A stretch of DNA of 64,000 nt from NCBI GenBank assembly GCA_002840975.1, contig PHDN01000004.1, positions 62,001-126,000 of the forward strand, written 5' to 3'. Numbering within the stretch: position 1 is the first letter of the stretch; every line of letters starts with the position of its first letter. Positions 6,042-51,445 of this stretch are shown one piece after another. The DNA is from Bacteroidetes bacterium HGW-Bacteroidetes-16 (GTDB lineage: Bacteria > Bacteroidota > Bacteroidia > Bacteroidales > F082). The position numbers and the translations under genes were made by a program. Under the pieces are notes generated by a model. That model had not been told where the DNA came from, ran no database searches, and worked only from the letters and a program-made list of their open reading frames with translations.

Positions 6042-7386
6042 ACGCTTTAGGATACAGATCATCATCAGGGTGGTGCTTATGGCCATTACCCTATTCTTTG
6101 TATTTTATCTTTTTCAAAAGCCTGCTTATCTGGTAAGTACCCTCATTTTGATTCTGATCAGTATCGCGCAGGTAATTTCGCTGATCCGTTACACGGAACA
6201 AACAAATCGGAAACTGGCCCGTTTTTTTGAATCCATCAGACATGCCGATTTCTCTACCTCCTTTTCGGAAAACGAGTTGGGGAAAAGTTTCGAAGGCTTA
6301 AACAACGAATTCAATCAGGTAATTGCAGCTTTCAACAAAAACAAAACCGAGAAGGAAGAACACTTTAATTATCTTCTCACTGTAATTCAACATGTGAGCA
6401 TAGGCATCATTGTGTTTAAACGCGATGGAAATGTGGATGTATTTAATAACGCAGTTAAACATCTGTTGCAAATTAACCGACTCAGAAAAATCAGTCACCT
6501 GAAAGAAGTTTCGAACGAACTCCCTGAAAAGTTGCTCTCCATGAGGGCAGGCGATAAAACCCTTTTCAAACTATTTGTAAACGATGAATTGCTGCAACTT
6601 TCGATGCATGCCACCGAATTTAAAATGCGCGGCGAGGAATATACATTGGTTTCTTTTCAGGACATCCATCCCGAGTTGGAACAAAAGGAAATTGAATCGT
6701 GGCAAAAACTGATCCGTGTGCTGACGCACGAAATCATGAACTCCATTACACCCATCTCCTCTTTGGCTGCCACCATTAAAGAAATTTTGGAAGAGAGAAG
6801 AGACCACTATCCCCCAAGAGATGAACAGGAAGCCGAAGATATTGAAAGCGTTACACAGGCCGTTGCAACCATCGAAAACCGGGGGAAAGGGCTGTTAAAC
6901 TTTGTGGAATTATACCGAAACCTAACACGAATACCAAAACCTCATTTTCGATATTTTAAGGCAAGCACCCTGTTCGAAAGTACCATGGAGCTGATGAACC
7001 CAAAGATTGAGCAACTTAACATCAAATGCACCACCCGAATCTTTCCCCAGGACCTGAAAATTCTTGCCGATCCTGATTTAATCGATCAGGTGTTGATCAA
7101 TTTAATACTGAATGCCATAGATGCTGTGGCCGAGGTCGATAAACCCCAGATCACCATTGTGGCATCTGTTAACCTGAATAACAGAACCACCATTGAGGTA
7201 GCCGATAACGGTAAAGGAATCAACCAGGATATCCTGGACAAAATTTTCATGCCCTTTTTCACATCAAAGAAAAGTGGCTCGGGCATTGGTCTGAGCCTTT
7301 CACGCCAGATCATGCAAATGCACAAAGGAACTATCAGCGTTCGTTCCAAGCCTGGTGAAGGAGCCAATTTTACGGTGATTTTCTAG
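6031..7386 (+). CDS. Sensor histidine kinase partner of the NtrC-type regulator
   Basis: I place the start at the ATG at 6031, which overlaps the end of the regulator gene by 11 bases; a GTG at 6001 is possible but would extend the overlap without adding a domain. The protein has two adjacent membrane helices (about 10-28 and 33-53) with almost no periplasmic loop, a PAS-like middle region, the H-box in VLTHEIMNSITPISSL, N-box NLILNAIDAV, G1 DNGKGI and G2 GSGIGLSLSRQIM. The near absence of a periplasmic domain suggests it senses something in the membrane or cytoplasm, for example a signal from the transporter itself. Translational coupling supports a cognate pair. Confidence 0.9.
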   Translation: MVYKRFRIQIIIRVVLMAITLFFVFYLFQKPAYLVSTLILILISIAQVISLIRYTEQTNRKLARFFESIRHADFSTSFSENELGKSFEGLNNEFNQVIAAFNKNKTEKEEHFNYLLTVIQHVSIGIIVFKRDGNVDVFNNAVKHLLQINRLRKISHLKEVSNELPEKLLSMRAGDKTLFKLFVNDELLQLSMHATEFKMRGEEYTLVSFQDIHPELEQKEIESWQKLIRVLTHEIMNSITPISSLAATIKEILEERRDHYPPRDEQEAEDIESVTQAVATIENRGKGLLNFVELYRNLTRIPKPHFRYFKASTLFESTMELMNPKIEQLNIKCTTRIFPQDLKILADPDLIDQVLINLILNAIDAVAEVDKPQITIVASVNLNNRTTIEVADNGKGINQDILDKIFMPFFTSKKSGSGIGLSLSRQIMQMHKGTISVRSKPGEGANFTVIF

Positions 7387-10600: not shown

Positions 10601-12790
10601 AAAAATGCATTACAACTGGCTGAACAGGCTACCAATGCCAAAAGTCAGTTTTTAGCCACCATTTCTCACGAAATTCGCACACCACTCAACGCAGTTGTTG
10701 GCCTTACCCATTTGGCGCTTAATACTTCCCTGACAGGAAAGCAGGAAGATTATTTGCAGAAAATTGACCGATCGGCAGCCACCCTGCTTGGTTTAATCAA
10801 CGACATTTTGGATTTCTCCAAAATTGAAGCCGGTAAAATGCAACTTGAGAAGGCGAGTTTTGATCTGGAAATCGTGCTCAGCTCAATCATGACCCTAAAC
10901 GCACAAAATGCAAATGAAAAAAACCTGGAGTTTGTGATCAACATTGCCAGGGATGTTCCCCGTAAGTTAATTGGCGACCCATTGCGGTTAGGGCAGGTGC
11001 TAACGAACCTATGCAACAATGCCATTAAATTCACCTCTACAGGCGAAGTGGTCATTCAGGTTGATTTGGATAAAAAAATAAGCGAAACCGAATGTTTCTT
11101 ACAGGTCTCCGTTAAAGATACGGGAATTGGAATCAGCGAAGAGCATATTCCTGTCCTCTTTGATGAATTTAAACAAGCCGACAACTCGATTACCCGAAAA
11201 TTTGGCGGAACAGGGCTTGGGCTCAGTATCAGCAAGTTGCTTATTGAAATGATGGATGGCCGCATCTGGCTTGAAAGCGAACCTGGTGTAGGCAGTACCT
11301 TTTATTTTACCTGCAAGGTCGGCGTTCAACCCGGAAACACATTCCCGTGCCAATCAGTTCCCGAAGCATTAAAACAACTCGACATTCTGGTGTGCGATGA
11401 CAACCATTCCGCGCTGAAATCACTCGTTGACATACTTAACTCATTTTCACTAAAAGTGAACACGGCTACTTCAGGGGAGGAAGTACTTAACATTATCAAG
11501 AATAAACCAGTGGACTTGTTGCTGATAGACATGCATTTGACCGGTATGAGCGGACTCGACACGATTATCACCATCAAAGAAAATCCCCATTTTTCGCCAA
11601 TGAAATCGATCCTGGTTGCCGGTACCGAAAAAAGCAAGAAAAACTTTGAGCAAACCATTTCCAACATCGATGGATACCTAAGCAAACCCTTTATCCCTTC
11701 GGTAGTAATAGAAAAAATAGGTACCGTAGTCGGGTTGTCAAAAGCATGTGCCGAATCCCAGACTGAAAAATCCTCCCTTCTTGAAAACGCCATAAAAAAA
11801 CTGGCAAGAAGTCGGGTCCTATTAGCTGAAGACAATGAAATCAACCAACAGGTAGTACTTGAATTACTTGAAAACGTCGGGATTAATGTCCACTTGGCAG
11901 ACAATGGTGCCATAGCCATACAAAAAGCGTTAAAAATGCATTTCGACCTGATTTTGATGGACTTGCACATGCCTGTGATGGATGGATACAAGGCATCCAT
12001 TCAAATCCGTAAACACGATAAACAGGTGCCGATCATCGCCATCACGGCTGATGCCACGAGTTCCACCTGGAAAAAATGTGATGAGTCGGGAATTAACGAT
12101 ATCATTACCAAACCCATCGACACAGATTTATTTTTTAAGCAATTGTTAAAATGGATTTCTCCCGGGAATGATCCTGAATTAAAAACCATTCCCTCCTCTG
12201 ATATATCCGGAATCTATTTCCCCTGTATACCCATCGGTGATTTGGATGCACGTTCCGGCATTCGAAGGTTCGGTAACAATGAAGGCCTTTATTTAAAAAT
12301 GCTGAAAAAATTTGTTTCTTCCAATAAGCAAACCTGCGCTCATCTTCGACAACTCGTTGGTCAGGGTAATTTTGAGCAAGCACATCTCATGATTCACACA
12401 TTGAAAGGAGAAAGTGGAAATATCGCGGCCGATCATGTATACAAACAATCGCAGTTGGTTGAGCAGGCGGTTTTGAACAAAGATTTAAGCCTCTTTGAAA
12501 AAGAGATGAACTCGCTCGAGACTAAACTGGTGGCCATTTCAAAATCCTTAGAAGACCATTTTCAGGAAACTTCGGACAGCTCTGAAAAAGCAGAAAAAAT
12601 ATCGAAAGAAACCATCGTTTTATTGATGGGATATTTGAGAGAAAAGAACCCAAAAGCCCTTGACCTGCTTGATGAACTTGCTTCCAAAGGAATGAGCAGG
12701 GCACAACTGGATACCATCAATGCTGCCGTAAACAACGAGCATATTGATGAGGCCATTATCGTGCTGAATAAGCTATTAGAAGAACTTTAA
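7607..12790 (+). CDS. Giant hybrid sensor kinase: two propellers, Y_Y_Y, kinase, two receivers, HPt
   Basis: 1727 residues. An N-terminal signal peptide ends in a lipobox-like LQSC (C21). From about 210 to 770 there are 14 repeats with cores such as WFGTNGGG (Reg_prop), enough for two seven-bladed propellers. A Y_Y_Y domain follows (about 860-935), then one membrane helix (about 950-975). The cytoplasmic part has HisKA with H1021 in ATISHEIRTPLN, a HATPase with GTGLGLSISK, receiver 1 (about 1257-1375, D near 1306), receiver 2 (about 1400-1515, D near 1451) and an HPt domain with H1597 in MIHTLKGESGN. The classical Bacteroides HTCS ends in an AraC domain; this one has none and must pass phosphate to a separate regulator. 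Such periplasmic propellers commonly sense glycans, but no polysaccharide-utilisation genes adjoin it. Confidence 0.92.
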   Translation: MRTLNTFFTFLICIFLILQSCGETKIQQKNEKIQQLSNLLAEKKPITVPGINDSLLVGVLGENGLKHPNFFSGGKCETIVFNILTGVTPGISFLPQTIEQKIAGDQPVKSKAPVIIQVPKSKLSAANTTLIEPQIVTLVPRELEMSLDSLALFDKKALESGLITIQHEDSIFPPIRIFAQQPKHIEALPFRYKENALFDLSFLDADQELPNSYIRAITEDKNGTMWFGTHTGGLISYNGSFFNQYTMPCGLSSDMILSLIKDKNDHFWMGTHGGGADYFDGKKITRYTKRQGMPSNIILAIMEDHLGNIWFGTTNGVSCFDGATLVTYTTNQGLAGNNVVSVFEDNNNNIWFGTNKGATRFDGTTFVTFTSADGLPSDYILTIAQDHLDNIWFGTNGGGISKFDGVTFTNYSTDQGLGGNAILSIIEDHDDDNLWFGTFGNGVTRFNGTTFSSYNSGQGLSDDYVRTLFEDDQGNLWIGTDGGGVSHFNFNSFVHFTKEQGLSDNLVLSIFQDKETRFWFSVFGDGLLILNDPNPPSENSTFLHINSKQGLAHDIVTSMIEDSNNDFWFATFGGGVSKMSAKDFETGKITFTNYSVDQGLPSDIVRAVIQDKKGDIWFGSEGGATKFDGQKFYTLNQKNGLGSSKVLSICEDQMGALWFGTMDGGVSRLFQDTLVNYTTEQGLANNTVWTIIQDHQGIMWFGTDGGGVSAFNGQSFRTFTTEEGLGNNYVFSLSCDNSNSIWAGTIRGLTQIMVPDSLSSNNEHFINDTFVMQNYTKMDGLVGVDFYTNAVFHDQNNRMWWGTDKALSMLDLNTYKSSKNAPNAQLNAILLNDKSYVFDELKSNTSKYSQSEIRFGEVLPFSNLPADLSLPYHINHLTFQFCAADWGAPHQVQYQYKLVGFDDEWSLLSKENVADYRNITPGHFTFLLRATGKAGVWSETIKYPFVIRWPWYLSWWSVVIYILVFILGIWLIIKWRVSIIQKQKTALEGMVRHRTNELKNALQLAEQATNAKSQFLATISHEIRTPLNAVVGLTHLALNTSLTGKQEDYLQKIDRSAATLLGLINDILDFSKIEAGKMQLEKASFDLEIVLSSIMTLNAQNANEKNLEFVINIARDVPRKLIGDPLRLGQVLTNLCNNAIKFTSTGEVVIQVDLDKKISETECFLQVSVKDTGIGISEEHIPVLFDEFKQADNSITRKFGGTGLGLSISKLLIEMMDGRIWLESEPGVGSTFYFTCKVGVQPGNTFPCQSVPEALKQLDILVCDDNHSALKSLVDILNSFSLKVNTATSGEEVLNIIKNKPVDLLLIDMHLTGMSGLDTIITIKENPHFSPMKSILVAGTEKSKKNFEQTISNIDGYLSKPFIPSVVIEKIGTVVGLSKACAESQTEKSSLLENAIKKLARSRVLLAEDNEINQQVVLELLENVGINVHLADNGAIAIQKALKMHFDLILMDLHMPVMDGYKASIQIRKHDKQVPIIAITADATSSTWKKCDESGINDIITKPIDTDLFFKQLLKWISPGNDPELKTIPSSDISGIYFPCIPIGDLDARSGIRRFGNNEGLYLKMLKKFVSSNKQTCAHLRQLVGQGNFEQAHLMIHTLKGESGNIAADHVYKQSQLVEQAVLNKDLSLFEKEMNSLETKLVAISKSLEDHFQETSDSSEKAEKISKETIVLLMGYLREKNPKALDLLDELASKGMSRAQLDTINAAVNNEHIDEAIIVLNKLLEEL

Positions 12791-30372: not shown

Positions 30373-32556
30373 ATGATTAAGCTCATGAAAAATTTTATTC
30401 TATCGATCTCATTGGCTTTGTTTTTACTCTCAGGCAGTTTCCTTGCCGCGGGACAAACCGATTGGCAATATATTTCTCCATTACCGGGGTCAAAATGGAT
30501 AAACCCTGAACAAACCATTTCTTTCAGAATGGGTGAACAAATCTTGCTTTCGAGCCTGGATGGTAATTTGCTTCAACTCGAAGGAAGCAAAAGTGGTAGT
30601 ATGAACTGTGATGTTGTTTTAGCAGATGATGGACGCACCGTTATTTTTACACCCGGAAAACCATTTGCTTTTGGAGAAACCATTCAGGTGACTTTAAAAA
30701 AGGGCATCACTACCTTTTCGGGGAATATCAATGAAGAAATTACCTTTTCGTTTCAAATAAAACCACGTGAAACGATCAGTTTGCTTGCCCAATACTATAT
30801 CGACCAGGAGGAAGAGGATCTTAGTATTGTAAAAAACAATGCCGCAACTTCAACCCAAAACAAATCTGTTTCAGAACTCATCACTTATGGCGATTACGTG
30901 CTGCCCGGAAATTATATGAGTCCCACCATTACCGCGCTAAACAATCCTTTTCCCGGTTATACTTTTGCTACGCCACGACCTAATCAGGGCGCTCCTTATA
31001 AGCAATACAATGTTATTCTCGATCAATTTGGAGAGCCTGTGTTCTTTCTCGAATGGACTTCCAACTGCAACTTATTTCAAAAAACATTTGACGACAAGCT
31101 CATTTTTTGTGCCTTTTCAAATCCCAATCCATCAATTAACAAATGGTATGTATTAAACAACAAATTCCAATTTATTGATACCCTTTACATGGGCAATGGG
31201 TATACCATTGATCAACATGGAGTCTTTATGATGGAAAACGGCAATCACTTGCTTATCGCCTACGATCCACAACCTGTTGGAATGGACACTGTTTACCCGG
31301 GTGGAAACCCAAATGCCAGTGTTGTAGGGCTTATTGTTCAGGAACTCGATGCCAGTCATAATGTATTGTTTCAATGGAGAAGCTGGGATCATTTTGACAT
31401 TCTTGATGGCAATCACGTTGACTTCACGGCTGCAAGCATTGATTATGTACATGGGAATTCTGTTTGTTTAACACTTGACAACCAAATACTTATTAGTTGT
31501 CGTGGCATGGATGAAGTAACCAAAATAGATAGAAATACAGGAGATGTCTTGTGGCGGTTTGGCCTGCATGCACAAAACAATATGTTTAGTTTTACAAACG
31601 ACACCACCGGTTTTTCGCATCAACATGATACCCGTCAAATTGAAAATGGAAATTTCACGGTTTATGACAATGGAGTTTATCATACACCGCCCTTTAGCAG
31701 GGGAGTTGAATATGAGTTGGATGAAAACAACCTCACGGCCACTTTAGTTTGGGATTATTCGCATGACCCCTTGATTTATGCCAATGCCACAGGAAGCAAC
31801 CACAGGTTACCCAACGACAATTCGCTCATCTGTTGGGGCCTCAACTGGCCCATCGCTTTTACCGAAGTAAATTCAAACAACGAAATACAATGGGAATTGA
31901 ATTACCCTGATTTTATTTGGAATTACCAGGCCTTTCGCCAAACCTGGGAGACAGGATTATTTTCAACCAACTTCGACACCATCGATTATGGTTATTACCA
32001 TGATTATATTCCCTGGCCGGTTATTGTAACCATTACCAACCAATCCGACGATGAAATTACCATCAACAGCGCATCAAATCATTCTCCGGCCTTTACACTG
32101 GCAACCCAGTTGCCCCAAACACTTGCAGCACAGGAAACAAAGAATTTTATTGTCAACTTCTACCCTGAAGGACTTGGACAACAGGATTTCGAAGATGTGA
32201 TCACCTTTAATTACGATTCCTATTTTGGGGACGACTCCCTGAGTCGCCGGATAGCCCGTCAGGTCATTTTAAAAGGAACTACCATTAATCCTTCCTCCAT
32301 TGATGGATTTGAAACGAGCTCTGTCGGGGTATTCCCCAATCCAACCTCCGGCATGGTTGAGATACATTCGAAAGAGGGGACCATAGAGCAAATTACCGTG
32401 AGCAACATTTATGGGGAAGTGGTTCAGCAACAGCCTGTTTCATCCTTTTCTGAATTTAATATCGATTTGGGGGAACTGGCCAATGGCATCTACTTTATCA
32501 AAATTAAACTTCAGAACCACGATCAACAAATAGTGAAAAAGCTGATAAAAAGGTGA
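30373..32556 (+). CDS. Secreted arylsulfotransferase-like (ASST) protein with T9SS tail
   Basis: 727 residues: signal peptide (to about 27), an Ig-like N-terminal domain (about 30-140), a six-bladed propeller core of the arylsulfotransferase type, an Ig-like domain (about 545-640) and a T9SS sorting tail (about 655-727; VGVFPNPTSGMVEIHS, NGIYFIKIKLQNH). Core signatures fit the family: DGNHVDF, DYVHGNSVCLTLDNQILISC, KIDRNTGDVLWRFG and SHQHDTRQIENGNFTVYDNG, giving candidates for the conserved histidines and arginine. Characterised enzymes move sulfate between phenols in the periplasm; an outer-membrane-exported version suggests surface or extracellular action. Sulfotransfer activity is inferred. 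Confidence 0.85.
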   Translation: MIKLMKNFILSISLALFLLSGSFLAAGQTDWQYISPLPGSKWINPEQTISFRMGEQILLSSLDGNLLQLEGSKSGSMNCDVVLADDGRTVIFTPGKPFAFGETIQVTLKKGITTFSGNINEEITFSFQIKPRETISLLAQYYIDQEEEDLSIVKNNAATSTQNKSVSELITYGDYVLPGNYMSPTITALNNPFPGYTFATPRPNQGAPYKQYNVILDQFGEPVFFLEWTSNCNLFQKTFDDKLIFCAFSNPNPSINKWYVLNNKFQFIDTLYMGNGYTIDQHGVFMMENGNHLLIAYDPQPVGMDTVYPGGNPNASVVGLIVQELDASHNVLFQWRSWDHFDILDGNHVDFTAASIDYVHGNSVCLTLDNQILISCRGMDEVTKIDRNTGDVLWRFGLHAQNNMFSFTNDTTGFSHQHDTRQIENGNFTVYDNGVYHTPPFSRGVEYELDENNLTATLVWDYSHDPLIYANATGSNHRLPNDNSLICWGLNWPIAFTEVNSNNEIQWELNYPDFIWNYQAFRQTWETGLFSTNFDTIDYGYYHDYIPWPVIVTITNQSDDEITINSASNHSPAFTLATQLPQTLAAQETKNFIVNFYPEGLGQQDFEDVITFNYDSYFGDDSLSRRIARQVILKGTTINPSSIDGFETSSVGVFPNPTSGMVEIHSKEGTIEQITVSNIYGEVVQQQPVSSFSEFNIDLGELANGIYFIKIKLQNHDQQIVKKLIKR

Positions 32557-38104: not shown

Positions 38105-38716
38105 TTAAACAAATGGTTTTTTTAGAAACAACCCATACTCCTCCCTGGTATTAACATTCAGCAATACCTCCTTAAATTCCACCTCCAGCTGCTTACCATA
38201 AAAGGCACCCAATAACTGTTTAAAATCATGAAATTCATTGGTTTCATTGCGTAAAACGGCCATTATACTGTCGGATATTAAAATGGGATGCCCGCCTTTT
38301 CCGGCGAAAATGGGCTTTACGTAACCGGCCTCCCCAAGACTGCAAAACAATTGTTCCAATAAAGTGATTTCCACGAAAGGATTATCAATGTTATGAATAA
38401 AACACGGTGTATTCCCCGAAAGGGCTCCTGCTCCCAGTTGGATAGAAAGCAACCTGCCTTGCTCAGGTGTTGGATTTTGGATGATTTTCACCTGTTCCGG
38501 AAGGGTTGAAAAATATTCAGGTTGATTTTCAAAATCATGGTTGTTTACCACCACCACCATTTCATGAATTCCAGCCCGCTGGTAAACGGTTATCATCCTG
38601 TGCAGGAAGGTTTCCCCTGAGGCATGCTCCAGCAGAAACTTAGGCCTTCCCATGCGCTCTGATTTACCCGCCGCAAGAATAATGACACCACAATCTGAGA
38701 GCTCCGTATTTAACAT
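38105..38716 (-). CDS. mocA: MobA/MocA-like nucleotidyltransferase
   Basis: 203 residues. The N-terminal nucleotide-binding signature is VIILAAGKSERMGRPKFLL (10-28), followed by VVVVNNHDF, NPTPEQGRLLSIQLGAG and the metal-site region CFIHNIDNPFVEITLLEQL. This is the MobA/MocA group that attaches CMP or GMP to molybdopterin. It is divergent from the ygfK-xanthine dehydrogenase operon, as mocA (ygfJ) accompanies the same genes in E. coli, so it most likely finishes the molybdenum cofactor for that dehydrogenase. Its promoter box is 4 bases from the ATG. Confidence 0.82.
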   Translation of the reverse strand: MLNTELSDCGVIILAAGKSERMGRPKFLLEHASGETFLHRMITVYQRAGIHEMVVVVNNHDFENQPEYFSTLPEQVKIIQNPTPEQGRLLSIQLGAGALSGNTPCFIHNIDNPFVEITLLEQLFCSLGEAGYVKPIFAGKGGHPILISDSIMAVLRNETNEFHDFKQLLGAFYGKQLEVEFKEVLLNVNTREEYGLFLKKPFV

Positions 38717-38720
38717 GGTT

Positions 38721-38728
38721 CAAAATTA
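38721..38728 (-). promoter_or_regulatory. -7 promoter element of the mocA-like gene (TAATTTTG), 4 bases from ATG
   Basis: Minus strand TAATTTTG, then AACC, then ATG: the same 4-base spacing as at trpS and rbfA, implying a leaderless or nearly leaderless mRNA. Confidence 0.5.
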
Positions 38729-38759
38729 CGTGAAATTCAAAACCTGCGCTACTTTTCAC

Positions 38760-38767
38760 TAAATTTG
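38760..38767 (+). promoter_or_regulatory. -7 promoter element (TAAATTTG) of the ygfK operon
   Basis: Exact TAnnTTTG match 24 bases before the ATG at 38792. An upstream in-frame TTG at 38765 overlaps this box, which argues for the ATG start. Confidence 0.5.
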
Positions 38768-38791
38768 GTGGTTCAAATTGAAAGTCCTGTT

Positions 38792-41700
38792 ATGACGGAT
38801 CACTTCACCCTTATTCCGGTCGATTTGATGTTGAAAAACATCCTCGACGAATTTCAACATACAAACCGCATTTTTGGCATACACCAAAGTCTGTTTTTTG
38901 CTCCTGTAAAAGACGACCCCATTTGCGCCAGCCGTTTTGGTCAATGGATTGAATCGCCCATCGGCGTAGCGGCAGGTCCGCATACCCAGCTTACACAAAA
39001 CATCGTGGCAGCGTGGCTTACAGGTGCCCGTTTTATCGAACTGAAAACCATCCAGACCCTCGACGAACTCCATGTGTCCAAACCCTGCATCGACATGCAG
39101 GATGAAGGTTATAACTGCGAATGGTCGCAGGAATTGAAAATCCATGAATCGTTTGACCAGTATTTAAATGCCTGGATGATCATCCATGTGCTGAAAGATT
39201 TACTCGGACATCAGCAAAAAAAACCCGGATTGATCTTCAATATGAGCGTGGGATACAACTACCAGGGAATCCTCAACGAAAATGTACAGTGGTTTTTACA
39301 ACACATGCACAATGCGGACGAAGCACTGCAACAAAAAGTAAAACTCCTTGGTCAGATTTATCCCAAAGTCAAAAAACTCAACATACCGACCCGACTCAGC
39401 AACAACGTTACTTTGAGCACCATGCACGGCTGTCCGCCGCAGGAAATTGAACAAATTGCCCATTATCTGCTGGCTGAAAAAAAGTTGCACACTACGGTTA
39501 AACTCAATCCAACTTTGTTGGGTAAAGAAACCTTGCATGAGATCATGGGTCTATCCGGTTTTGGCACCCGGATTCCTGATGCGGCTTTTGAACATGATTT
39601 GAAATATGAAGATGCAGTTCCGATGTTGCAACGGCTGCAGGCTACCGCCAATGAAATGAGACTCAGTTTCAGCGTTAAACTCACCAATACGCTTGAAAGC
39701 GAAAACCACAAACAGGTCTTTCCTTCCAACGAACCCATGATGTACATGAGTGGCCGCGCCTTGCATCCCCTTTCGGTGAAACTGGCCGAAAAACTTCAAA
39801 ATACCTTTGTTGGGAAACTTGACATCAGCTTTTCGGGCGGAGCCGATGCCTTTAATGTGGTGGAATTGGTGAATGCAGGCCTTTCTCCTGTTACTGTTTG
39901 TTCAGATTTGCTTAAACCAGGAGGCTACGGACGTTTACATCAATATATCAAAGCCTTGCGGGATGTCATGAAGGCTACTTATTCGGAAGATTTGCAGGAG
40001 ATGATCCACAAAAAAGTGCGTTGTTTCTGCTGTACCGATGAGGATGCCGCCTGGCGGAACCTGATCAAATATGCCGCCGGAATCAACCAAAATCCGGCCT
40101 ATAAAAACACAAACCTGCGTTTGCCCACCATCAAAACAGATCGTGAACTGGGAACTATTGATTGCATTCAGGCACCCTGTGTGCATACCTGTCCTACTCA
40201 CCAAGACATACCTGAATACCTGATGCAGACGGCTACGGGCGATTTTGATCAGGCGGCAAAAGTCATTTTAAAGACAAATCCCTTTCCGCAAACCACCGGC
40301 ATGGTATGCGATCACCTGTGCCAAACGCGTTGTACCCGGATTAATTACGATTCTTCGATATTGATAAGAGAAGTGAAACGCTTTGTGGCGGAAACAGTTT
40401 TAAAAAACCAGGATTCAGAAAGCCGGTTTGCATTCAATGGGAAAAAAGTGGCCATCATCGGGGCAGGTCCTTCGGGATTATCCTGTGGTTACTATCTGGC
40501 CAAAGCCGGATTTCAGGTAGACATCTACGAAAGTAAACCGCAGCCCGGAGGCATGGTAGCCGGCGCCATTCCGTCTTTCCGTTTGCCGGATGAAGATTTG
40601 AATATTGATATCAACCGGATGCTGTCGATGGGAATTAATATTCACTTTCAGTCCACCGTTGATAACAGGTTGTTTGAAACATTAAAATCAGACACTGATG
40701 CCATCTACATTGCCGCAGGAGCGCAGCAATCTGTCAAACTGAACATCCCGGGCATTCAGGCTTCGGGTGTTCTCGATCCACTCGAATTTTTATTCAACGT
40801 AAAAAAAGGGAATCCCACAGGATTGGGCCAAAATATTGTTATCATCGGGGGTGGAAATACCGCCATGGACGCGGCACGTATTGCGTTCCGGCTGGTGGGC
40901 GACCAGGGAAAAGTCACCATCGTTTATCGCCGGAGCATTGCCGAAATGCCTGCCGATCAGGAAGAAATAAGGGCAGTTCTGGAAGAAGGAATAGAGATTC
41001 TGGAGTTGGCATCGCCTGTAAAAATTGTGCAAAATCAGGGTCAGGTGCTGGGGTTACTTTGTCAGAAAATGAAATTGGGAGGGCCGGATGCTTCCGGAAG
41101 AAAAAACCCTGTTCCCATCAGTGATTCTGAATTTACCCTAGAAGCCGACACCATTATCCCGGCTATCGGACAAGAGCTGGACATCGATTTTATTGAAAAG
41201 GATGCAATTGAAAATCAACGGATTCAAACCCGTATTTCAAAAGTGTATATCGGCGGCGATGCCTTGCGGGGAGCTTCTACCGCCATCAACGCCATTGCGG
41301 ACGGTCGAAAGGCAGCCGAAGAAATTATCCGTGAAATCAATCCCGCAACAGACCTAAATCAGGAAGTTAGCCTCCGCCCCCACGATTTTGACGAACTCAT
41401 GTTCAAAAAGTCACAAAGGATCAGGGGAATTTCACCGGTGGAAACCCCTTTGACCGAAAGAAAGAATTTCAATATGGTTACCACCACACTAACCCAGGAG
41501 GAGGCTATGGCCGAGTCGTCGCGTTGTTTACAGTGCGATGTGCTTTGCAATGTTTGCACCACCGTATGTCCCAATCTGGCGTTCAGGTCGTTCCAAATCA
41601 CCCCCATACACTACAAACTAAATAAACTGGTAATCAACAACCATCAGGTAAATAATGAACCGGATGTGGATTTTGTTGTAAATCAACCTTATCAGATTCT

Positions 41701-42070
41701 TCATCTCGAAGAATGGTGCAACCAATGTGGGAATTGCACCACCTTCTGCCCGACTTCGGGTGCCCCCTGGCGGGAGAAACCACATGTATACCAAACCCGG
41801 AATGACTTTGCAGAAAGCGGGGATGGGTACTATTTTGATGAAGAAACAAGCGTTCTTCATCACATTAAAGATGGAACCCAAGCCACGCTGACCATGGACC
41901 ATGATCAGTTTATTTATCAGGAAGAAGGTGTTGAAATCCAGTTAAATCCATCTACTTTTGAAATCACGGGATGGAACCTGGATACAGAAAAGAACAAAGA
42001 ATTTACCTTGTCGACAGCCGCCGAAATGAGCGTGGTGTGGCAGGGTTTTCAACATAAAAATCAGTCTTAA
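38792..42070 (+). CDS. ygfK: YgfK-type iron-sulfur flavoprotein (purine catabolism cluster)
   Basis: 1092 residues from the ATG at 38792. The N-terminal 400 form a dihydroorotate-dehydrogenase-like barrel (GVAAGPHTQLTQNIVAAWLT, TLSTMHGCPPQEIE). A GltD-like part follows, with cysteine cluster CVHTCPTHQDIPEYL, CDHLCQTRCTRINYDSS, FAD site VAIIGAGPSGLSCGYYLAKA (about 550) and NADPH site IVIIGGGNTAMDAARIA (about 683). Two ferredoxin-like clusters close it: CLQCDVLCNVCTTVCPN (about 913) and CNQCGNCTTFCP (about 975). This is the full E. coli YgfK layout, with strong stretchwise similarity from memory. YgfK is called a putative selenate reductase subunit but belongs to the anaerobic purine/urate cluster, where it probably carries electrons for a reductive ring step. 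Confidence 0.93.
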   Translation: MTDHFTLIPVDLMLKNILDEFQHTNRIFGIHQSLFFAPVKDDPICASRFGQWIESPIGVAAGPHTQLTQNIVAAWLTGARFIELKTIQTLDELHVSKPCIDMQDEGYNCEWSQELKIHESFDQYLNAWMIIHVLKDLLGHQQKKPGLIFNMSVGYNYQGILNENVQWFLQHMHNADEALQQKVKLLGQIYPKVKKLNIPTRLSNNVTLSTMHGCPPQEIEQIAHYLLAEKKLHTTVKLNPTLLGKETLHEIMGLSGFGTRIPDAAFEHDLKYEDAVPMLQRLQATANEMRLSFSVKLTNTLESENHKQVFPSNEPMMYMSGRALHPLSVKLAEKLQNTFVGKLDISFSGGADAFNVVELVNAGLSPVTVCSDLLKPGGYGRLHQYIKALRDVMKATYSEDLQEMIHKKVRCFCCTDEDAAWRNLIKYAAGINQNPAYKNTNLRLPTIKTDRELGTIDCIQAPCVHTCPTHQDIPEYLMQTATGDFDQAAKVILKTNPFPQTTGMVCDHLCQTRCTRINYDSSILIREVKRFVAETVLKNQDSESRFAFNGKKVAIIGAGPSGLSCGYYLAKAGFQVDIYESKPQPGGMVAGAIPSFRLPDEDLNIDINRMLSMGINIHFQSTVDNRLFETLKSDTDAIYIAAGAQQSVKLNIPGIQASGVLDPLEFLFNVKKGNPTGLGQNIVIIGGGNTAMDAARIAFRLVGDQGKVTIVYRRSIAEMPADQEEIRAVLEEGIEILELASPVKIVQNQGQVLGLLCQKMKLGGPDASGRKNPVPISDSEFTLEADTIIPAIGQELDIDFIEKDAIENQRIQTRISKVYIGGDALRGASTAINAIADGRKAAEEIIREINPATDLNQEVSLRPHDFDELMFKKSQRIRGISPVETPLTERKNFNMVTTTLTQEEAMAESSRCLQCDVLCNVCTTVCPNLAFRSFQITPIHYKLNKLVINNHQVNNEPDVDFVVNQPYQILHLEEWCNQCGNCTTFCPTSGAPWREKPHVYQTRNDFAESGDGYYFDEETSVLHHIKDGTQATLTMDHDQFIYQEEGVEIQLNPSTFEITGWNLDTEKNKEFTLSTAAEMSVVWQGFQHKNQS

Positions 42071-42079
42071 GAAATTAAC

Positions 42080-43549
42080 ATGGACACAAAAGAAAGAGTA
42101 CTCGAAAACACCATCCAACGATGCAGGGAACGTCACATCATCCTTCCCACTTACAAACAAATGCGTAACCCGGAGCATATTCCTCAGAAGATTAAAGACA
42201 AGCTGGCCAATATCGGGCTGTGGGATTTGAATTCCCTCAACCTGTTCCGCATCACCTGGAAAAACGAACCCAGGGATTTTGGAGGGAAATTCGGAGACGT
42301 CAATTACCTTGAAATCCCTTCTGAACTTACGGGAGTAAAAGCCCGTATCATCGTGCTGATTGGAAAATATTTTCCCACCGGAGCCCACAAAGTAGGTGCT
42401 ACCTTTGGTCCGTTGGTCGAGAAACTGGTCACAGGTCGTTTCGATCCCACCTGCCAGAAAGCCCTCTGGCCTTCCACCGGAAACTATTGTCGCGGAGGCG
42501 CTTACGATAGTTATTTATTGGGTTGTGAATCCATTGCCGTGTTACCACAGGGCATGTCGCCTGAGCGTTTCGACTGGCTTCACAAAGTAGGAGCCGAAGT
42601 GTTTGCCACACCCGGCAGCGAAAGCAATGTGAAGGAAATTTACGACAAGGTAAAAGTCCTGAAAGCAGAGCGCGGCGACGGCATCGTCAACCTGAACCAG
42701 TTTGAAGAAATTGGTAACCCCATGTGGCATTATGCTGTTACCGGACCTGCAATGGAGGAGGTTTACAATCAAACCAAAAAACCAAACCAGCGTTTTAGCG
42801 GGGTCTTCCTGACGCAGGGATCGGCCGGAACTTTAGGAAGTACGGATTACCTCCGCGAAAAATTCCCTCACATGAAAGTCTGCGCCGGAGAGGCAGTTCA
42901 ATGTCCCACCTTGCTTGAAAACGGATATGGCGAGCACCGCATCGAAGGCATCGGCGACAAGCATGTGCCCTGGATTCACAACATCCGCAACATGGATCTG
43001 GTGGGTGCCATCGACGACAATCCAAACATCCGCCTCATGCGCCTGTTTAACGAACCCGCCGGAAGAGAATACCTGAAAAAAGAACTCCATATTGATGCTG
43101 CTCTGGTGGATAAACTGGGCCTGTTGGGTATTTCTTCCATCGCCAACCTGATGGGTTCCATCAAGCTGGCCAAGTACTACGAAATGGACGAAAACGACAT
43201 GCTCTTCACGGTAGCCACCGATTCCATGGACATGTATCAGTCGCGTCTGGCCGAAGAAAAGCAAAAACATGGCGAATTCACCAACCGGGATGCGGCCGTC
43301 AGCTTCAATTCCGACCTGCTAGGATTGAACATCGACCACATGCTGGAGATGACCTATTATCAGAAAAAACGCATGCACAACCTGAAATACTTTACCTGGA
43401 TTGAACAACAGGGCAAAACCGTGGAGGAACTGAATGCCCAGTGGTACGACGAAAATTACTGGAAATCGCGCTATGCAAAAGTTCAGGAATGGGATGACGA
43501 AATCAATGCCTTCAACGAACGTACCGGCGTGTCGAAAGAATACAATTAA
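42080..43549 (+). CDS. Fold-type-II PLP enzyme in the purine-type cluster
   Basis: 489 residues. The PLP lysine is in GKYFPTGAHKVGATFG (K104), the substrate/PLP region reads WPSTGNYCRGGAYDS, and the phosphate-binding glycine loop is LTQGSAGTLGSTDYL (about 241-255). The fold is that of cysteine synthase and tryptophan synthase beta, but the N-terminal 75 residues and the long C-terminal helical part (YYQKKRMHNLKYFTWIEQQ) are unlike those enzymes. It begins 9 bases after ygfK. In E. coli the corresponding cluster has ygeX, a fold-type-II diaminopropionate ammonia-lyase. I infer an ammonia-releasing or beta-elimination role on a diamino or imidazole-derived intermediate; the exact reaction is unknown. 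Confidence 0.82.
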   Translation: MDTKERVLENTIQRCRERHIILPTYKQMRNPEHIPQKIKDKLANIGLWDLNSLNLFRITWKNEPRDFGGKFGDVNYLEIPSELTGVKARIIVLIGKYFPTGAHKVGATFGPLVEKLVTGRFDPTCQKALWPSTGNYCRGGAYDSYLLGCESIAVLPQGMSPERFDWLHKVGAEVFATPGSESNVKEIYDKVKVLKAERGDGIVNLNQFEEIGNPMWHYAVTGPAMEEVYNQTKKPNQRFSGVFLTQGSAGTLGSTDYLREKFPHMKVCAGEAVQCPTLLENGYGEHRIEGIGDKHVPWIHNIRNMDLVGAIDDNPNIRLMRLFNEPAGREYLKKELHIDAALVDKLGLLGISSIANLMGSIKLAKYYEMDENDMLFTVATDSMDMYQSRLAEEKQKHGEFTNRDAAVSFNSDLLGLNIDHMLEMTYYQKKRMHNLKYFTWIEQQGKTVEELNAQWYDENYWKSRYAKVQEWDDEINAFNERTGVSKEYN

Positions 43550-43583
43550 CCATTTTGCTTTCGGGCATTAATTCATTTAAGAA

Positions 43584-44822
43584 ATGATGCATCAAGAAAT
43601 AACTTATTCCTGCACTACCTGTGGACAGGTATTCAGCGCTGCCGACGTCCGCTACTTATGTCCGGTTTGTGCAGAGGACAACGATCCGTTGCAACCTCCC
43701 CTGGGCGTGCTGAAAGTGATTTATCCTTATGCCGAATTGAAATCGCAAGGCATTGGATTTAAACAGCTTAAAGAAAGAGAATTTCTTGATTTATTGCCCA
43801 TTGCAAACTGCGAAAACCTTCCCCCATTAAAAATAGGAAAAACGCCTTTGTACCGGGTGCGGTCCATTCGCCATGATACCATTCCCTTTGAATTGTATCT
43901 GAAAGACGACAGCCAAAATCCGACGTATTCTTTTAAAGACAGGGCTTCGGCGATGGTATCGGCTTTCGCCAAAGAGCACGAAATCGACACCATTGTAACG
44001 GCTTCCACCGGAAATGCAGGTTCCTCGCTGGCCGGGATCTGTGCTTCACAAGGACAAAAAGCGTACGTGATCGTTCCCGAAAGTGCTCCCATCGCCAAAC
44101 TCACGCAAATCATCATGTATGGTGCAACGCTCATTCCCGTCAAGGGTACTTACGACGACGCCTTCGATTTGAGTGTGAGTGCTACCCGCGAAATGGGTTG
44201 GTATAACCGAAATACGGCCTATAATCCGATGACCATCGAAGGAAAAAAAAGCGTGTCCTTTGAGTTGTTCGAAGAACTTGGAGAAGTGGTTCCTGATGCT
44301 GTGTTTGTGCCTGTGGGCGATGGAGTGATCATTTCCGGCGTTTATAAAGGGTTCGAAGATTTGCTGAAAACAGGCATCATCGATCACATGCCCATGGTGG
44401 TGGCTGTGCAGGCCGAAGGGAGTGCCAACCTGGTAAACAACCTCGAAGGAGTGGGTTTTACCATCCGTCCCAGTCGCACCCTGGCTGATTCCATCTCCGT
44501 GGATATTCCACGAAATTTCCACATGGCCCGCCAGTTTTTGGATCTTTATAACGGAGAATGGCTCACTGTATCCGACATCGAAATCCTTAACGCTTCGGCC
44601 TTGTTGGCTAAATCATATGGATTGTTTGTGGAGCCGGCGGCCGCGGCGGCCATGGCCGGATTGCTCAAATACCATGACCAGGAACTGGTTTCGCCGGGCA
44701 GTAAAAATGTTGTGCTGCTCACCGGCAGCGGCCTCAAGGATTTGTCGGCTGTGAAGCCATTGCTTAACATGCCCAAAGCAATCGAGCCTACACTTAGCGA
44801 ACTAAAATACCTGTTGAAATGA
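43584..44822 (+). CDS. Threonine-synthase-like PLP enzyme with zinc ribbon
   Basis: 412 residues. A four-cysteine zinc ribbon opens the protein (C10, C13, C26, C29), as in many archaeal-type threonine synthases. The PLP lysine is K118 in NPTYSFKDRAS, followed by TASTGNAGSSLAG and the glycine loop VPVGDGVIISGVYKG. Its C-terminal VLLTGSGLKD is also family-typical. In an ordinary setting I would call it threonine synthase. Here it is fourth-wall tight in a catabolic operon: 34 bases after another PLP enzyme, and overlapping the xanthine dehydrogenase start by 4 bases. No homoserine kinase or dehydrogenase is near. It more likely acts on an amino acid formed by purine ring opening. Confidence 0.8.
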   Translation: MMHQEITYSCTTCGQVFSAADVRYLCPVCAEDNDPLQPPLGVLKVIYPYAELKSQGIGFKQLKEREFLDLLPIANCENLPPLKIGKTPLYRVRSIRHDTIPFELYLKDDSQNPTYSFKDRASAMVSAFAKEHEIDTIVTASTGNAGSSLAGICASQGQKAYVIVPESAPIAKLTQIIMYGATLIPVKGTYDDAFDLSVSATREMGWYNRNTAYNPMTIEGKKSVSFELFEELGEVVPDAVFVPVGDGVIISGVYKGFEDLLKTGIIDHMPMVVAVQAEGSANLVNNLEGVGFTIRPSRTLADSISVDIPRNFHMARQFLDLYNGEWLTVSDIEILNASALLAKSYGLFVEPAAAAAMAGLLKYHDQELVSPGSKNVVLLTGSGLKDLSAVKPLLNMPKAIEPTLSELKYLLK

Positions 44823-47374
44823 TATCCTTTAAACTCAATGGCGAACTTGTAAACTATTACGGAGATCCGGATGGATTTTTACTGCCCTTTTTGCGCCTCG
44901 ACAAACACCTCACGACTGTAAAAGACGGTTGCTCCGGGCAGGCTGCTTGTGGTGCCTGCACCGTGGAAATCAACGGCAAAGCCAGACTGGCTTGTGTCAC
45001 CAGGATGAAAACGCTGGAAAACGCAGAAGTGTTAACTCCCGAAGGTTTTCCTCCATCTGTGCTCGACACCATCGCCAAATCGTTTGTCAATCAGGGTGCT
45101 GTGCAGTGTGGGTTTTGTACTCCGGGGTTTATCAGCCGTACAAAAGTGCTTTTGCAGGACAAGCCAAATCCTACCATTCAGGAAATTCAGCAGGCACTCA
45201 AACCTCATCTGTGCCGGTGTACCGGATATAAAAAGATTGAACAAGCCATTGAAGTTGCTGCAGATTCGCTTGCAAGCGGAAAACACCTCGAACTGACCAA
45301 AACTAGTGGAAAAATCGGAATCCCGCATCCAAAATACGAAGCCTATCAAACCGCCATCGGTGAACGCAAGTTTGTGGACGACATGTTCCTTGACGGGATG
45401 CTTTTTGCGGCGTTAAAATTTTCGGATCATCCTAAGGCGAAAATCCTTAAAATCGATGTATCGGAAGCATTGGAAATACCCGGTGTTCATGGGATTTTCA
45501 CTGCAAACGACATTCCGGGTGAACAAAAAGTCGGCCTCATACTTCAGGATTGGTCGGTGATGATTGGCGAAGGACAAACCACCCACTACATTGGCGATGT
45601 GCTGGCAGGTGTGGTAGCCGACAGCGACCAAATTGCCCGCGAGGTGGTAGCCAGAATAAAAGTGGAATATGAGGTGCTGGAACCGGTTACCGATGTGATG
45701 AAAGCCATGGATGGTGAGCGCGTTCATTCTGAAAGGCCCAACCACTTCGATACCACACAATTCACCATTGGAGATGTCGAAACAGCCATGTCGAAGTCGG
45801 CATTTCGGTCCAAAGGCCATTATGAAACGCAACGCGTTGAACATGGTTTTATGGAAAAAGAAGCCGCCATCGCCCAACCGGATGGGAAGGGTGGAGTGGA
45901 GCTTTTCAGCCAGAGTCAGGGCGTGTATGAGGATCGCCGCCAGGTGGCCATGATCCTGGGCCTGCCTGAAGAAAAAGTAAGGGTGATCCTCGTACCCAAT
46001 GGTGGTGGTTTTGGAGGTAAGGAAGATATGACCATTCAGGGTCATACCGCCTTGTTCGCCTATTTGATGAATAAACCGGTAAAAATAACCCTACGGCGGG
46101 AAGAATCCATCCGTATGCACCCCAAACGACATCCTGTTTTCATGGATATGGAATTGGGTTGTAATGCCGATGGTAAACTCAATGCGCTTAAATTAAAAGC
46201 CGTTGGCGACACCGGGGCCTATGCTTCGGTAGGGATGAAAGTGATGGAACGCGTGGCCGGTCATGCTGCCGGAGGTTATTTTATCCCTGAGGTAGATATT
46301 GAAGCTAAAACGGTTTATACCAACAACATTCCCTGTGGAGCCATGCGCGGTTTTGGTGCCAACCAGGTGGCTTTTGCTTTGGAAAGCTGCATTGATGACC
46401 TCTGTGATCAAGGTGGTTTCGACCGCTGGCAATTTCGATACGACAATGCACTTGTGGATGGGTTGCGCACTTCTACCGGACAAAAAGTAAAAGGTGTTGG
46501 CATCCGGGCCTGTCTTGAAGCGCTAAAACCTGATTATCTGACAGCTCCTTTTTCGGGATTAGCTTGCGCCATCAAAAATTCCGGGGTGGGAAACGGCATG
46601 AAGGATGAATCACAGGTGAGCATAGAAATTCTCTCGGAAAACAAAATCCGTCTACAGCATGGCTGGACCGAGATGGGACAAGGCGTTCACAACATGGCGC
46701 TGCAAACCTTGTGCGAAGAAACCGGCGTTGATCCTAAAATCATTGAAGTGGTTGTGGATACAGAAGCACAGCTCAAAACCGGGATGACGACCAGTTCACG
46801 GGCCACCGCTTTGGTGGGGTTGGCCATCATCAACGCGGCCAAAGCATTTAAATCCGATTTAAAGCAACATTCGCTGAAAGCGTTGGTTGGCAAAACCTAC
46901 AAGGGCGAGTTTGTCTGCGACTGGACCACCAAACCCGGCACAGGTGTTGAAGACCCGATTATTCATTATTCCTACGGATATGCGGCCCAACTTTGTGTAC
47001 TCGACGAAAAAGGTGAAATCATCCGCATGGTAGCAGCACACGATGCCGGCAAAATCATGAATCCTCTGTTGTTCGAAGGACAGATCGAAGGCGGTGTTCA
47101 CATGGGTTTGGGTTACGCACTGACAGAAGATTTGCCCATGAAAGATGGTTTCTTACTCAGCGAACGCATGCGCGATTTAAAAATCCTGCGCGCTCACGAA
47201 ACCCCTGAAATCAAGGTGATTGGCGTGGAAGTTCCCGATCCTGTAGGTCCTTATGGAGCCAAAGGAATTGGCGAAATCGGCCTGGTGCCCACCGCAGCGG
47301 CTGTGGCCAATGCACTTTATGCTTTTGATGGGGTGAAGCGGATGAAATTGCCGTTGATGATAGGTAATTCTTAA
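44819..47374 (+). CDS. Selenium-type xanthine dehydrogenase, fused FeS and molybdenum subunits
   Basis: 851 residues, the length of the fused selenium-dependent hydroxylase family. Two [2Fe-2S] clusters are at the start: C38, C44, C47, C59 and C97, C100, C132, C134 (QCGFCTPGFI and CRCTGY). The molybdenum domain follows directly, with no FAD domain between, and includes FGGKEDMTIQGHTALFA, AMRGFGANQVAFALES, TEMGQGVHNM and the base-catalyst glutamate E819 in GIGEIGLVPTAAA. It should hydroxylate a purine (hypoxanthine, xanthine) or related heterocycle, passing electrons to a separate acceptor, perhaps YgfK. Selenium dependence (a labile Se ligand, not selenocysteine) is inferred from the gene family; selD, yqeB and yqeC are not in the window. 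Confidence 0.9.
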   Translation: MISFKLNGELVNYYGDPDGFLLPFLRLDKHLTTVKDGCSGQAACGACTVEINGKARLACVTRMKTLENAEVLTPEGFPPSVLDTIAKSFVNQGAVQCGFCTPGFISRTKVLLQDKPNPTIQEIQQALKPHLCRCTGYKKIEQAIEVAADSLASGKHLELTKTSGKIGIPHPKYEAYQTAIGERKFVDDMFLDGMLFAALKFSDHPKAKILKIDVSEALEIPGVHGIFTANDIPGEQKVGLILQDWSVMIGEGQTTHYIGDVLAGVVADSDQIAREVVARIKVEYEVLEPVTDVMKAMDGERVHSERPNHFDTTQFTIGDVETAMSKSAFRSKGHYETQRVEHGFMEKEAAIAQPDGKGGVELFSQSQGVYEDRRQVAMILGLPEEKVRVILVPNGGGFGGKEDMTIQGHTALFAYLMNKPVKITLRREESIRMHPKRHPVFMDMELGCNADGKLNALKLKAVGDTGAYASVGMKVMERVAGHAAGGYFIPEVDIEAKTVYTNNIPCGAMRGFGANQVAFALESCIDDLCDQGGFDRWQFRYDNALVDGLRTSTGQKVKGVGIRACLEALKPDYLTAPFSGLACAIKNSGVGNGMKDESQVSIEILSENKIRLQHGWTEMGQGVHNMALQTLCEETGVDPKIIEVVVDTEAQLKTGMTTSSRATALVGLAIINAAKAFKSDLKQHSLKALVGKTYKGEFVCDWTTKPGTGVEDPIIHYSYGYAAQLCVLDEKGEIIRMVAAHDAGKIMNPLLFEGQIEGGVHMGLGYALTEDLPMKDGFLLSERMRDLKILRAHETPEIKVIGVEVPDPVGPYGAKGIGEIGLVPTAAAVANALYAFDGVKRMKLPLMIGNS

Positions 47375-47409
47375 TCTGTAAAGTAATAACTATAATAAAC
47401 TGATCAATC

Positions 47410-48681
47410 ATGTCCATCATACTTAAAAACGCCACCTTTATCCACTGGAAATCGCTCGAACAAATTCAGACTTCCCTTAAAGTTGAACCCGGCTCTGGCG
47501 GGGGTTATTTATTGCTTCCGGCCGATCTTGAAGGCGTTGACATCAGCAAAGATGAAGTAATCGATTGCACCGGAAAGCTGGTCACCAAAGCCTTTGCTGT
47601 TGGACATCACCATGTGTATTCTGCCCTGGCCCGCGGGATGCCCGTTCCGGCAAAACAACCGGAGAACTTTATGGAAATCCTGAAATACGTATGGTGGAAC
47701 CTCGACAAGGCCCTCGACAAAGATATGATTGAAGCCAGTGCTCTGGCCACGGCCATGGCCTGTGCCAAGGCCGGATCTGCTTTTGTGATCGATCACCATG
47801 CTTCACCCAATGCCATCAGGGGTTCCCTGGAAATCATAGCCAAAGCATTCCATCGGGTAGGTGTGGGTCATTTGCTGTGTTATGAAATCTCCGACCGTGA
47901 TGGACTCGAAAAAGCTCAATCGGGTTTACAGGAAACTGAAGAATATCTGAATGCAAATCAGGGACTTGTCGGACTTCATGCTTCATTTACCGTAGGAGAT
48001 GAAACCCTGAAAAAGGCAATGAACCTGATGGAAAAGACCAACTCCGGCATCCACATCCATGTTGCGGAAGATTTGGCCGATCAAGACCACTGTCAGCAGC
48101 TTTATCACAGACGGGTAGTGGAAAGACTTCATCAGTTTGGGGTGCTCAATTCTCCAAAAACCATTTTGGCCCATTGTCTTCACCTCAGTGAAAAAGAGCG
48201 TAGTTTAATCCGAAATTCACCCGCGTGGTTAGTTGAAAATGCGGAAAGCAATCTGAATAACAACGTGGGCCACTTTCGTGGGACAGACCTGGGTAAGAAT
48301 ATCATGCTGGGCACCGATGGGATGCACAGCGACATGCTCCGAAGTGCGCAGGCGGCTTTTTTCGCCGGACAGGAAGCGGATCAAATCAACGTGCCGGAAG
48401 CCTATCGCAGGTTTAGAAATGTGCATCATTATTTAGCTGACAATCACTTTAAAGGCGATGGAGAAAACAACCTGGTAGTACTGGATTATAATTCACCAAC
48501 GCCTGTTACCACTGATAATTTCCCGGGACATTTTGTTTTTGGATTGTCATCCAACCACATCCAACATGTGATTTCAAACGGAAATTGGTTGGTGAATAAC
48601 AAAAGGCTCACCAATGTGGATGAAAAGGCGATTTTAACGTACACCAAAGAGCAGGCATTGCGCATGTGGAAAAAACTATAG
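47410..48681 (+). CDS. ssnA: SsnA-type metal-dependent aminohydrolase
   Basis: 423 residues of the amidohydrolase superfamily. Metal ligands are visible in AVGHHHVYSALARG (H66-H68), HIHVAEDLADQDHC, ILAHCLHLSEKE and LGTDGMHSDML. SsnA is a guanine-deaminase-like enzyme always found beside ygfK and the selenium hydroxylases; it is thought to deaminate or open a purine-derived ring. It is the last gene of the five-gene operon, 35 bases after the dehydrogenase. Its N-terminal strand is short and the second domain partly replaced by a C-terminal beta tail, as usual in the family. Confidence 0.92.
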   Translation: MSIILKNATFIHWKSLEQIQTSLKVEPGSGGGYLLLPADLEGVDISKDEVIDCTGKLVTKAFAVGHHHVYSALARGMPVPAKQPENFMEILKYVWWNLDKALDKDMIEASALATAMACAKAGSAFVIDHHASPNAIRGSLEIIAKAFHRVGVGHLLCYEISDRDGLEKAQSGLQETEEYLNANQGLVGLHASFTVGDETLKKAMNLMEKTNSGIHIHVAEDLADQDHCQQLYHRRVVERLHQFGVLNSPKTILAHCLHLSEKERSLIRNSPAWLVENAESNLNNNVGHFRGTDLGKNIMLGTDGMHSDMLRSAQAAFFAGQEADQINVPEAYRRFRNVHHYLADNHFKGDGENNLVVLDYNSPTPVTTDNFPGHFVFGLSSNHIQHVISNGNWLVNNKRLTNVDEKAILTYTKEQALRMWKKL

Positions 48682-51112: not shown

Positions 51113-51445
51113 TCAATACCTTAAAATATCGTTAAGTCCCTGTTTCAATTCACTTAATTCGGCTTTTGTGATCGTTCCTAATTTACTTACCAATCGTTCT
51201 TTTAAAATAGACCTAATTTGAAAAACCATCATTTCTGACTTTTGAGAAAGGCCATTTTCCGCATTGGGTTCAAGGACAATATTTCCCTTATATTCTTTGA
51301 TTTTAGAAGTCAACGGACAAGCTATTACCACCTTGAGGTAAGTATTTAACAAATCTCCACTGACAATAACTACCGGCCGGTATCCTTTTTGTTCGCTGCC
51401 CTTTACCGGATTTAAATCGGCAAACCAGATTTCCCGCTGTTTCAT
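51113..51445 (-). CDS. mazF: MazF/PemK-family mRNA interferase toxin
   Basis: 110 residues. The N-terminal IWFADLNPVKGSEQKGYRPVVIVS is the characteristic beta-barrel opening with conserved P and the G-x-E-x-x-x-x-RP motif; ACPLTSKIKEYKGNIVLEP and LSQKSEMMVFQIRSILKERL follow. MazF cleaves single-stranded mRNA at short sequences unless held by its antitoxin. Start overlaps the antitoxin gene by 4 bases, giving antitoxin-first order. Confidence 0.93.
   Translation of the reverse strand: MKQREIWFADLNPVKGSEQKGYRPVVIVSGDLLNTYLKVVIACPLTSKIKEYKGNIVLEPNAENGLSQKSEMMVFQIRSILKERLVSKLGTITKAELSELKQGLNDILRY

Follow-up and report, generated by a model that had tools for sequence, protein, structure and literature searches.

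A putative pair of PLP enzymes in place of YgeX in an anaerobic urate degradation operon of Bacteroidota

The reductive anaerobic pathway of uric-acid degradation was established biochemically in 2025 by Li et al. (PMC12507026). It leads from urate via yanthine, dihydro-yanthine, ureidomethyl-hydantoin and diureidopropionate to 2,3-diaminopropionate (DAP) (PMC12507026; commentary PMC12990295). For the ureido intermediates, an R configuration has been proposed (commentary PMC12990295), and YgeX, the 2,3-diaminopropionate ammonia-lyase (TIGR03528 / PRK08206), is equally active on both isomers (Li et al., PMC12507026). Anaerobic urate breakdown influences host uric-acid levels, and its gene set is used to call capable bacteria.

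Here, we compare an operon from a 64,000 nt stretch of a Bacteroidota genome (the window; assembly of 3.94 Mb in 46 contigs, 96.6% complete) with the urate cluster of E. coli and Clostridioides difficile (PMC12507026). The source genome encodes homologues of XdhD/XdhAC, YgfK, YgeW and YgeY as well as candidate homologues of SsnA and the HyuA-type hydantoinase. In contrast to the known cluster, it is without YgeX, whose slot is taken by two other enzymes (PLP1 and PLP2), and its genes are distributed over at least three contigs with the hydantoinase in a pyrimidine-type operon. In relatives, the pathway genes are clustered as in E. coli and C. difficile. We consider it likely that the operon, with XdhAC, YgfK and SsnA and the divergent MocA, supplies the first half of this reductive urate route, that the pathway is split over several loci, and that PLP1 and PLP2 are its last-step pair.

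The operon comprises five genes on the forward strand with gaps of 9, 34, -4 and 35 bases (ORF coordinates). Its first gene, ygfK (38792..42070, +), encodes an NAD(P)H-dependent yanthine reductase (flavin/Fe-S) that scores 917.7 bits with TIGR03315 (cut-off 835.3) and matches E. coli YgfK with 36% over 1061 aa. The respective ORF (38765-42070) opens with a TTG at 38765, but the ATG at 38792 is the more likely start. It is followed by PLP1 (42080..43549, +), PLP2 (43584..44822, +) and xdhAC (44819..47374, +), i.e., a fused 2Fe-2S and Mo hydroxylase with Fer2_2, Ald_Xan_dh_C and MoCoBD_1/2 domains. XdhAC passes the curated model for selenium-dependent Mo hydroxylases (TIGR03311; 846.5 bits, cut-off 830.45), and selD is present in the genome; with regard to the maturation factor YqeB, only weak YqeB-like neighbours are seen in relatives. 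From sequence, XdhAC is probably a selenium-dependent reductase that turns urate into yanthine. Glu606 of E. coli XdhD, which orients the substrate, was considered as a marker of urate reduction but dropped, since its position falls within an insertion when aligned and is uninformative.

The last gene, ssnA (47410..48681, +), encodes an amidohydrolase predicted to open the dihydro-yanthine ring. SsnA is the best family for this protein, with scores below the cut-offs (PRK07203 380.1 vs. 444 bits; TIGR03314 339.5 vs. 455.5 bits); it matches E. coli SsnA with 34% over 392 aa, and ssnA is linked to xdhAC in relatives. A mocA-like gene for a MoCo cytidylyltransferase (38105..38716, -; 203 aa) lies divergently to the operon. 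Its product shows 30% identity to E. coli MocA and 95.8 bits with TIGR03310, below the cut-off of 186.45, and the divergent placement recurs in several relatives. The preliminary description of this DNA had reported the six genes with the same strands and gaps, a cluster of the selenium-type purine kind, and the replacement of ygeX by two different fold-type-II enzymes. All of this is confirmed: the type of the cluster by YgfK and the Se-dependent XDH above curated cut-offs (SsnA and MocA are best families with scores below theirs), the replacement, at the level of gene content, by both proteins matching PF00291 above cut-off (235.9 bits for PLP2) and by its being a stable feature across the phylum.

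PLP1 (489 aa) combines an OASS/CBS-like core with a conserved C-terminal extension of about 100 aa. Its predicted single-chain structure has a mean pLDDT of 71.8, i.e., it is adequate for the fold and inadequate for the active site, and the top Foldseek match is CysK (8srt, E 7.2e-15). Lys104, the PLP lysine, as well as the STGN and GSAGT motifs are invariant in 19 sequences. PLP1 shares core fold and motifs with cysteine synthase and cystathionine beta-synthase, but differs from them by its length, the extra conserved C-terminal part, an identity of about 24% and NCBIfam scores far below cut-off. Because of its size and fold, we weighed whether PLP1 is OrtB (2-amino-4-oxopentanoate thiolase). 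On family models and gene neighbours, this was rejected: no OrtB model matches, and loci L103 and L107 encode, as neighbours of 732 and 743 aa, a histidine kinase and a CDC48-type ATPase and not ornithine aminomutase.

PLP2 (412 aa) carries zinc-ribbon-like cysteines at its N-terminus, and Lys118 as well as four Cys are invariant in 19 sequences. It passes the curated thrC model TIGR00260 (186.4 vs. cut-off 167.1 bits), has the threonine synthase fold and shows about 36% to haloarchaeal proteins annotated as threonine synthase. However, in the alignment with the solved threonine synthase 6cgq, Arg, Asn and Thr are changed to Thr217, Asp246 and Ala145, respectively, at positions that we take to be phosphate ligands for O-phosphohomoserine, and these three residues are likewise invariant in the 19 PLP2 sequences. 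Furthermore, the occurrence of PLP2 follows the urate cluster, as detailed below.

With YgeX, both proteins have the PLP fold type II and the pathway slot in common, but they score far below the YgeX cut-offs. We aligned PLP1 and PLP2 with E. coli YgeX and with six further YgeX proteins encoded in the genomes studied here. Asp120 and Asp189, presumably the two catalytic bases of YgeX, are found in all aligned YgeX and in no PLP1 or PLP2, while the PLP lysine is retained.

The preliminary description had stated that ygeW, ygeY and hyuA are absent from the operon and the whole window. This holds, with no homologues of ygeW, ygeY, hyuA or ygeX elsewhere in the window, but for ygeY and ygeW the absence does not extend to the genome. 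Searching the source genome for carbamoyltransferases led to the end of contig C32 and a protein of 395 aa, i.e., YgeW, whose gene is adjacent to ygeY. Both exceed their cut-offs (ygeY 537.7 bits, cut-off 321; ygeW 672.3 bits, cut-off 453). They are part of a second operon (L024, 5079-11330) that encodes, in this order, an XDH FeS-FAD protein (498 aa), an XDH Mo protein (751 aa), YgeY and YgeW and ends with ygeW 277 bases short of the contig end. For the two xdh genes, the nearest models are those of classical xanthine dehydrogenase (xdhA/xdhB) with scores below the respective cut-offs. The sole hydantoinase-type protein of the source genome is a dihydropyrimidinase on contig C13, which shows 46% to a hydantoinase adjoining ssnA in a relative. 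Its operon (L057, 8125-17513) resembles reductive pyrimidine degradation; its genes, named by eye from size and sequence, encode PydA/PreA-like, PreT-like and amidohydrolase-like proteins, the dihydropyrimidinase, an NCS1-type permease, and aminotransferase-like and aldehyde dehydrogenase-like proteins. Since the gene belongs to such a pyrimidine-type operon, we can only infer a role of this hydantoinase in urate degradation. That is, from a complete ygeW-ygeX-ygeY-hyuA set the genome provides ygeY, ygeW and a hydantoinase, but no ygeX match above cut-off anywhere in the assembly. Its PALP-family proteins found are four, including PLP1 and PLP2, with no clear CysK or TrpB.

The block recurs in other Bacteroidota. 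Twenty loci from the same family keep PLP1, PLP2 and xdhAC in one cluster as far as their contigs extend. This cluster usually includes ssnA and often has homologues of ygeY, ygeW, hyuA, yqeA (carbamate kinase), guaD, xanQ and ghxQ on its flanks. In a sample of 395 genomes from the phylum, 34 carry PLP1, 34 carry PLP2 at the match level used, and 33 carry both (Fisher p 8e-46, ignoring relatedness, and with both genes usually in one cluster). All 20 genomes with ygfK also have PLP1. In contrast, ygeX is present in 10/395 genomes; ygfK co-occurs in 5 of them, where ygeX is always located outside the fetched ygfK stretches. For the 14 PLP1 genomes without a ygfK match plus genome G304, i.e., 15 PLP1 loci, we find ssnA, ygeY, ygeW/OTC or xdh in 15/15. 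In one of these 14 genomes (L199, 9522-12037), YgfK is represented by two separate proteins adjoining PLP1, one PreT-like (422 aa) and one PreA-like (416 aa), and similar YgfK pieces exist in other PLP1 genomes without a ygfK match. With regard to gene order, PLP2 comes after ygeY-ygeW in several other families, and several families have PLP1 between xdh and ssnA/hyuA, apart from ygeY-ygeW-PLP2. In loci L212, L213 and L214, ygeX lies away from the urate cluster, with an adjoining 560 aa ORF and a ygeV-like sigma-54 activator nearby.

When 84,980 species genomes were scanned for PLP1, at least 595 stretches matched; the best 80, which were retained, are by record title from Cloacimonadota, Chloroflexota, Halanaerobiales, Desulfobacterales, Neomarinimicrobiota and others. 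Among 65 PLP1 loci longer than 8 kb, PLP2 is found in 41 and ygeX in 1; at least two other pathway-like genes are present in 32/65, and 14/65 lack both PLP2 and purine genes as far as the fetched stretch extends. The Cloacimonadota locus L071 is a single run of hyuA-ssnA-ygfK-ygeY-ygeW-PLP1-PLP2-xdh-mocA, and a similar gene set is observed for L101 (Desulfobacterales). Locus L118 has the order ygfK-PLP1-ygeX without PLP2, such that PLP2 looks exchangeable with ygeX. Immediately after these three genes, L118 encodes a 1228 aa histidine kinase (8056-11742). Named isolates with PLP1/PLP2 homologues include Halanaerobium kushneri ATCC 700103 and Anaerotignum sp. MSJ-24. Relatives of PLP1 (about 40-42%) are also found on Rhizobium and Bosea plasmids (L179, 8959-10458; L180, 9070-10404), without PLP2 or a recognisable purine cluster. 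They are close to M20 peptidases and sulfite exporters, with RidA also nearby on the Bosea plasmid.

Since the source genome has ygeY and ygeW, and relatives carry them next to the operon, the published chemistry is expected down to DAP, i.e., the upstream reactions would, by homology, follow those of the characterised enzymes. XdhAC would convert urate to yanthine, which YgfK would dearomatise with NAD(P)H and SsnA would ring-open to ureidomethyl-hydantoin. The C13 dihydropyrimidinase may then open the hydantoin ring, after which YgeW and YgeY from C32 would remove the two ureido groups to yield DAP. The classical-type xanthine dehydrogenase beside ygeY-ygeW could feed in xanthine as urate. 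A departure from the published pathway thus looks to be confined to the last step. For this step, performed by YgeX elsewhere, the genomic data point to PLP1 and PLP2 together turning DAP into pyruvate and 2 NH3 as the most likely replacement.

How the two enzymes would share this task is a guess that we consider doubtful in its details. PLP2 may eliminate the beta-amino group of DAP to 2-aminoacrylate, which would end as pyruvate and 2 NH3, and PLP1 may take the other DAP stereoisomer or racemise D-DAP. E. coli YgeX does both jobs alone since it accepts both isomers, such that two stereospecific enzymes, or a lyase assisted by a racemase, would make a natural substitute for it. PLP2 is favoured as the lyase on gene order, namely its swap with ygeX in L118 and its position after ygeY-ygeW. 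Going further, the chances seem evenly balanced that PLP1 and PLP2 are an obligate pair (perhaps one complex) and widespread, with a new division of labour, e.g., DAP racemase and DAP lyase, that forms a second type of terminal step, shared across phyla, in anaerobic urate breakdown and is mistaken for YgeX in surveys.

Since ygeW, ygeY and hyuA are not in the window and ygeY-ygeW lies on another contig, the operon could also be read as in the preliminary description, i.e., as a distinct route for a purine or another N-heterocycle, with amino acids and ammonia formed directly by way of PLP1 and PLP2. This reading is contradicted by ygeY and ygeW above cut-off in the same genome, by ygeY, ygeW, hyuA and yqeA beside the operon in relatives, and by the single run in L071, so we give it hardly any credence. 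It is also very improbable that PLP2 is a housekeeping threonine synthase and PLP1 its unrelated neighbour. Although PLP2 exceeds the thrC cut-off and the source genome yielded no Thr_synth_N protein, a housekeeping gene would not track the urate cluster, as PLP2 does with 33 of its 34 genomes shared with PLP1, and PLP2 replaces the presumed phosphate-ligand residues seen in 6cgq.

With its OASS/CBS-like core, PLP1 could, together with PLP2, send DAP into biosynthesis by beta-replacement (e.g., to cysteine or another beta-substituted alanine) and not to pyruvate, which would fit the finding of only four PALP proteins in the genome, with no CysK or TrpB recognised among them. However, the pair is tied to the catabolic cluster across phyla, and a further enzyme would still be required for DAP to serve as carbon and nitrogen source, which renders this use of DAP quite improbable. 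Finally, one of the two enzymes might act on albizziin (2-amino-3-ureidopropionate), e.g., by racemising it or eliminating the ureido group, with the other enzyme alone handling DAP. Here, the location of PLP1 between xdh and ssnA/hyuA, and not with ygeY-ygeW-PLP2, in several families is in accordance with an earlier substrate, as is L118, which retains PLP1 despite ygeX. We still regard it as unlikely: ygeY (albizziin to DAP) is kept in most clusters, and therefore the ureido group is presumably still hydrolysed off.

A joint role of PLP1 and PLP2 in the last step has consequences for surveys. In the neighbourhood survey of Li et al., YgeX is marked by Pfam PF00291 (PMC12507026), a family that cannot separate YgeX from PLP1 and PLP2, and the string 'bacteroid' is absent from the main text of that article. 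We therefore hold, with moderate confidence, that the PLP1+PLP2 variant of the known urate pathway is undescribed; an earlier mention in other literature is possible. If the pair replaces YgeX, many environmental lineages and some isolate lineages would be overlooked by surveys with ygeX as a requirement and mislabelled by PF00291-based ones. In addition, two uncharacterised PLP enzyme families gain a specific candidate substrate.

Elsewhere in the window, we observe overlapping ORFs for a histidine kinase and a sigma-54 response regulator (4662-7386), the latter with 40% to E. coli YgeV over 321 aa, an Arylsulfotransferase-family protein with a type IX secretion-type C-terminal sorting domain (30373-32556), and a PemK/MazF-like toxin gene (51113-51445).
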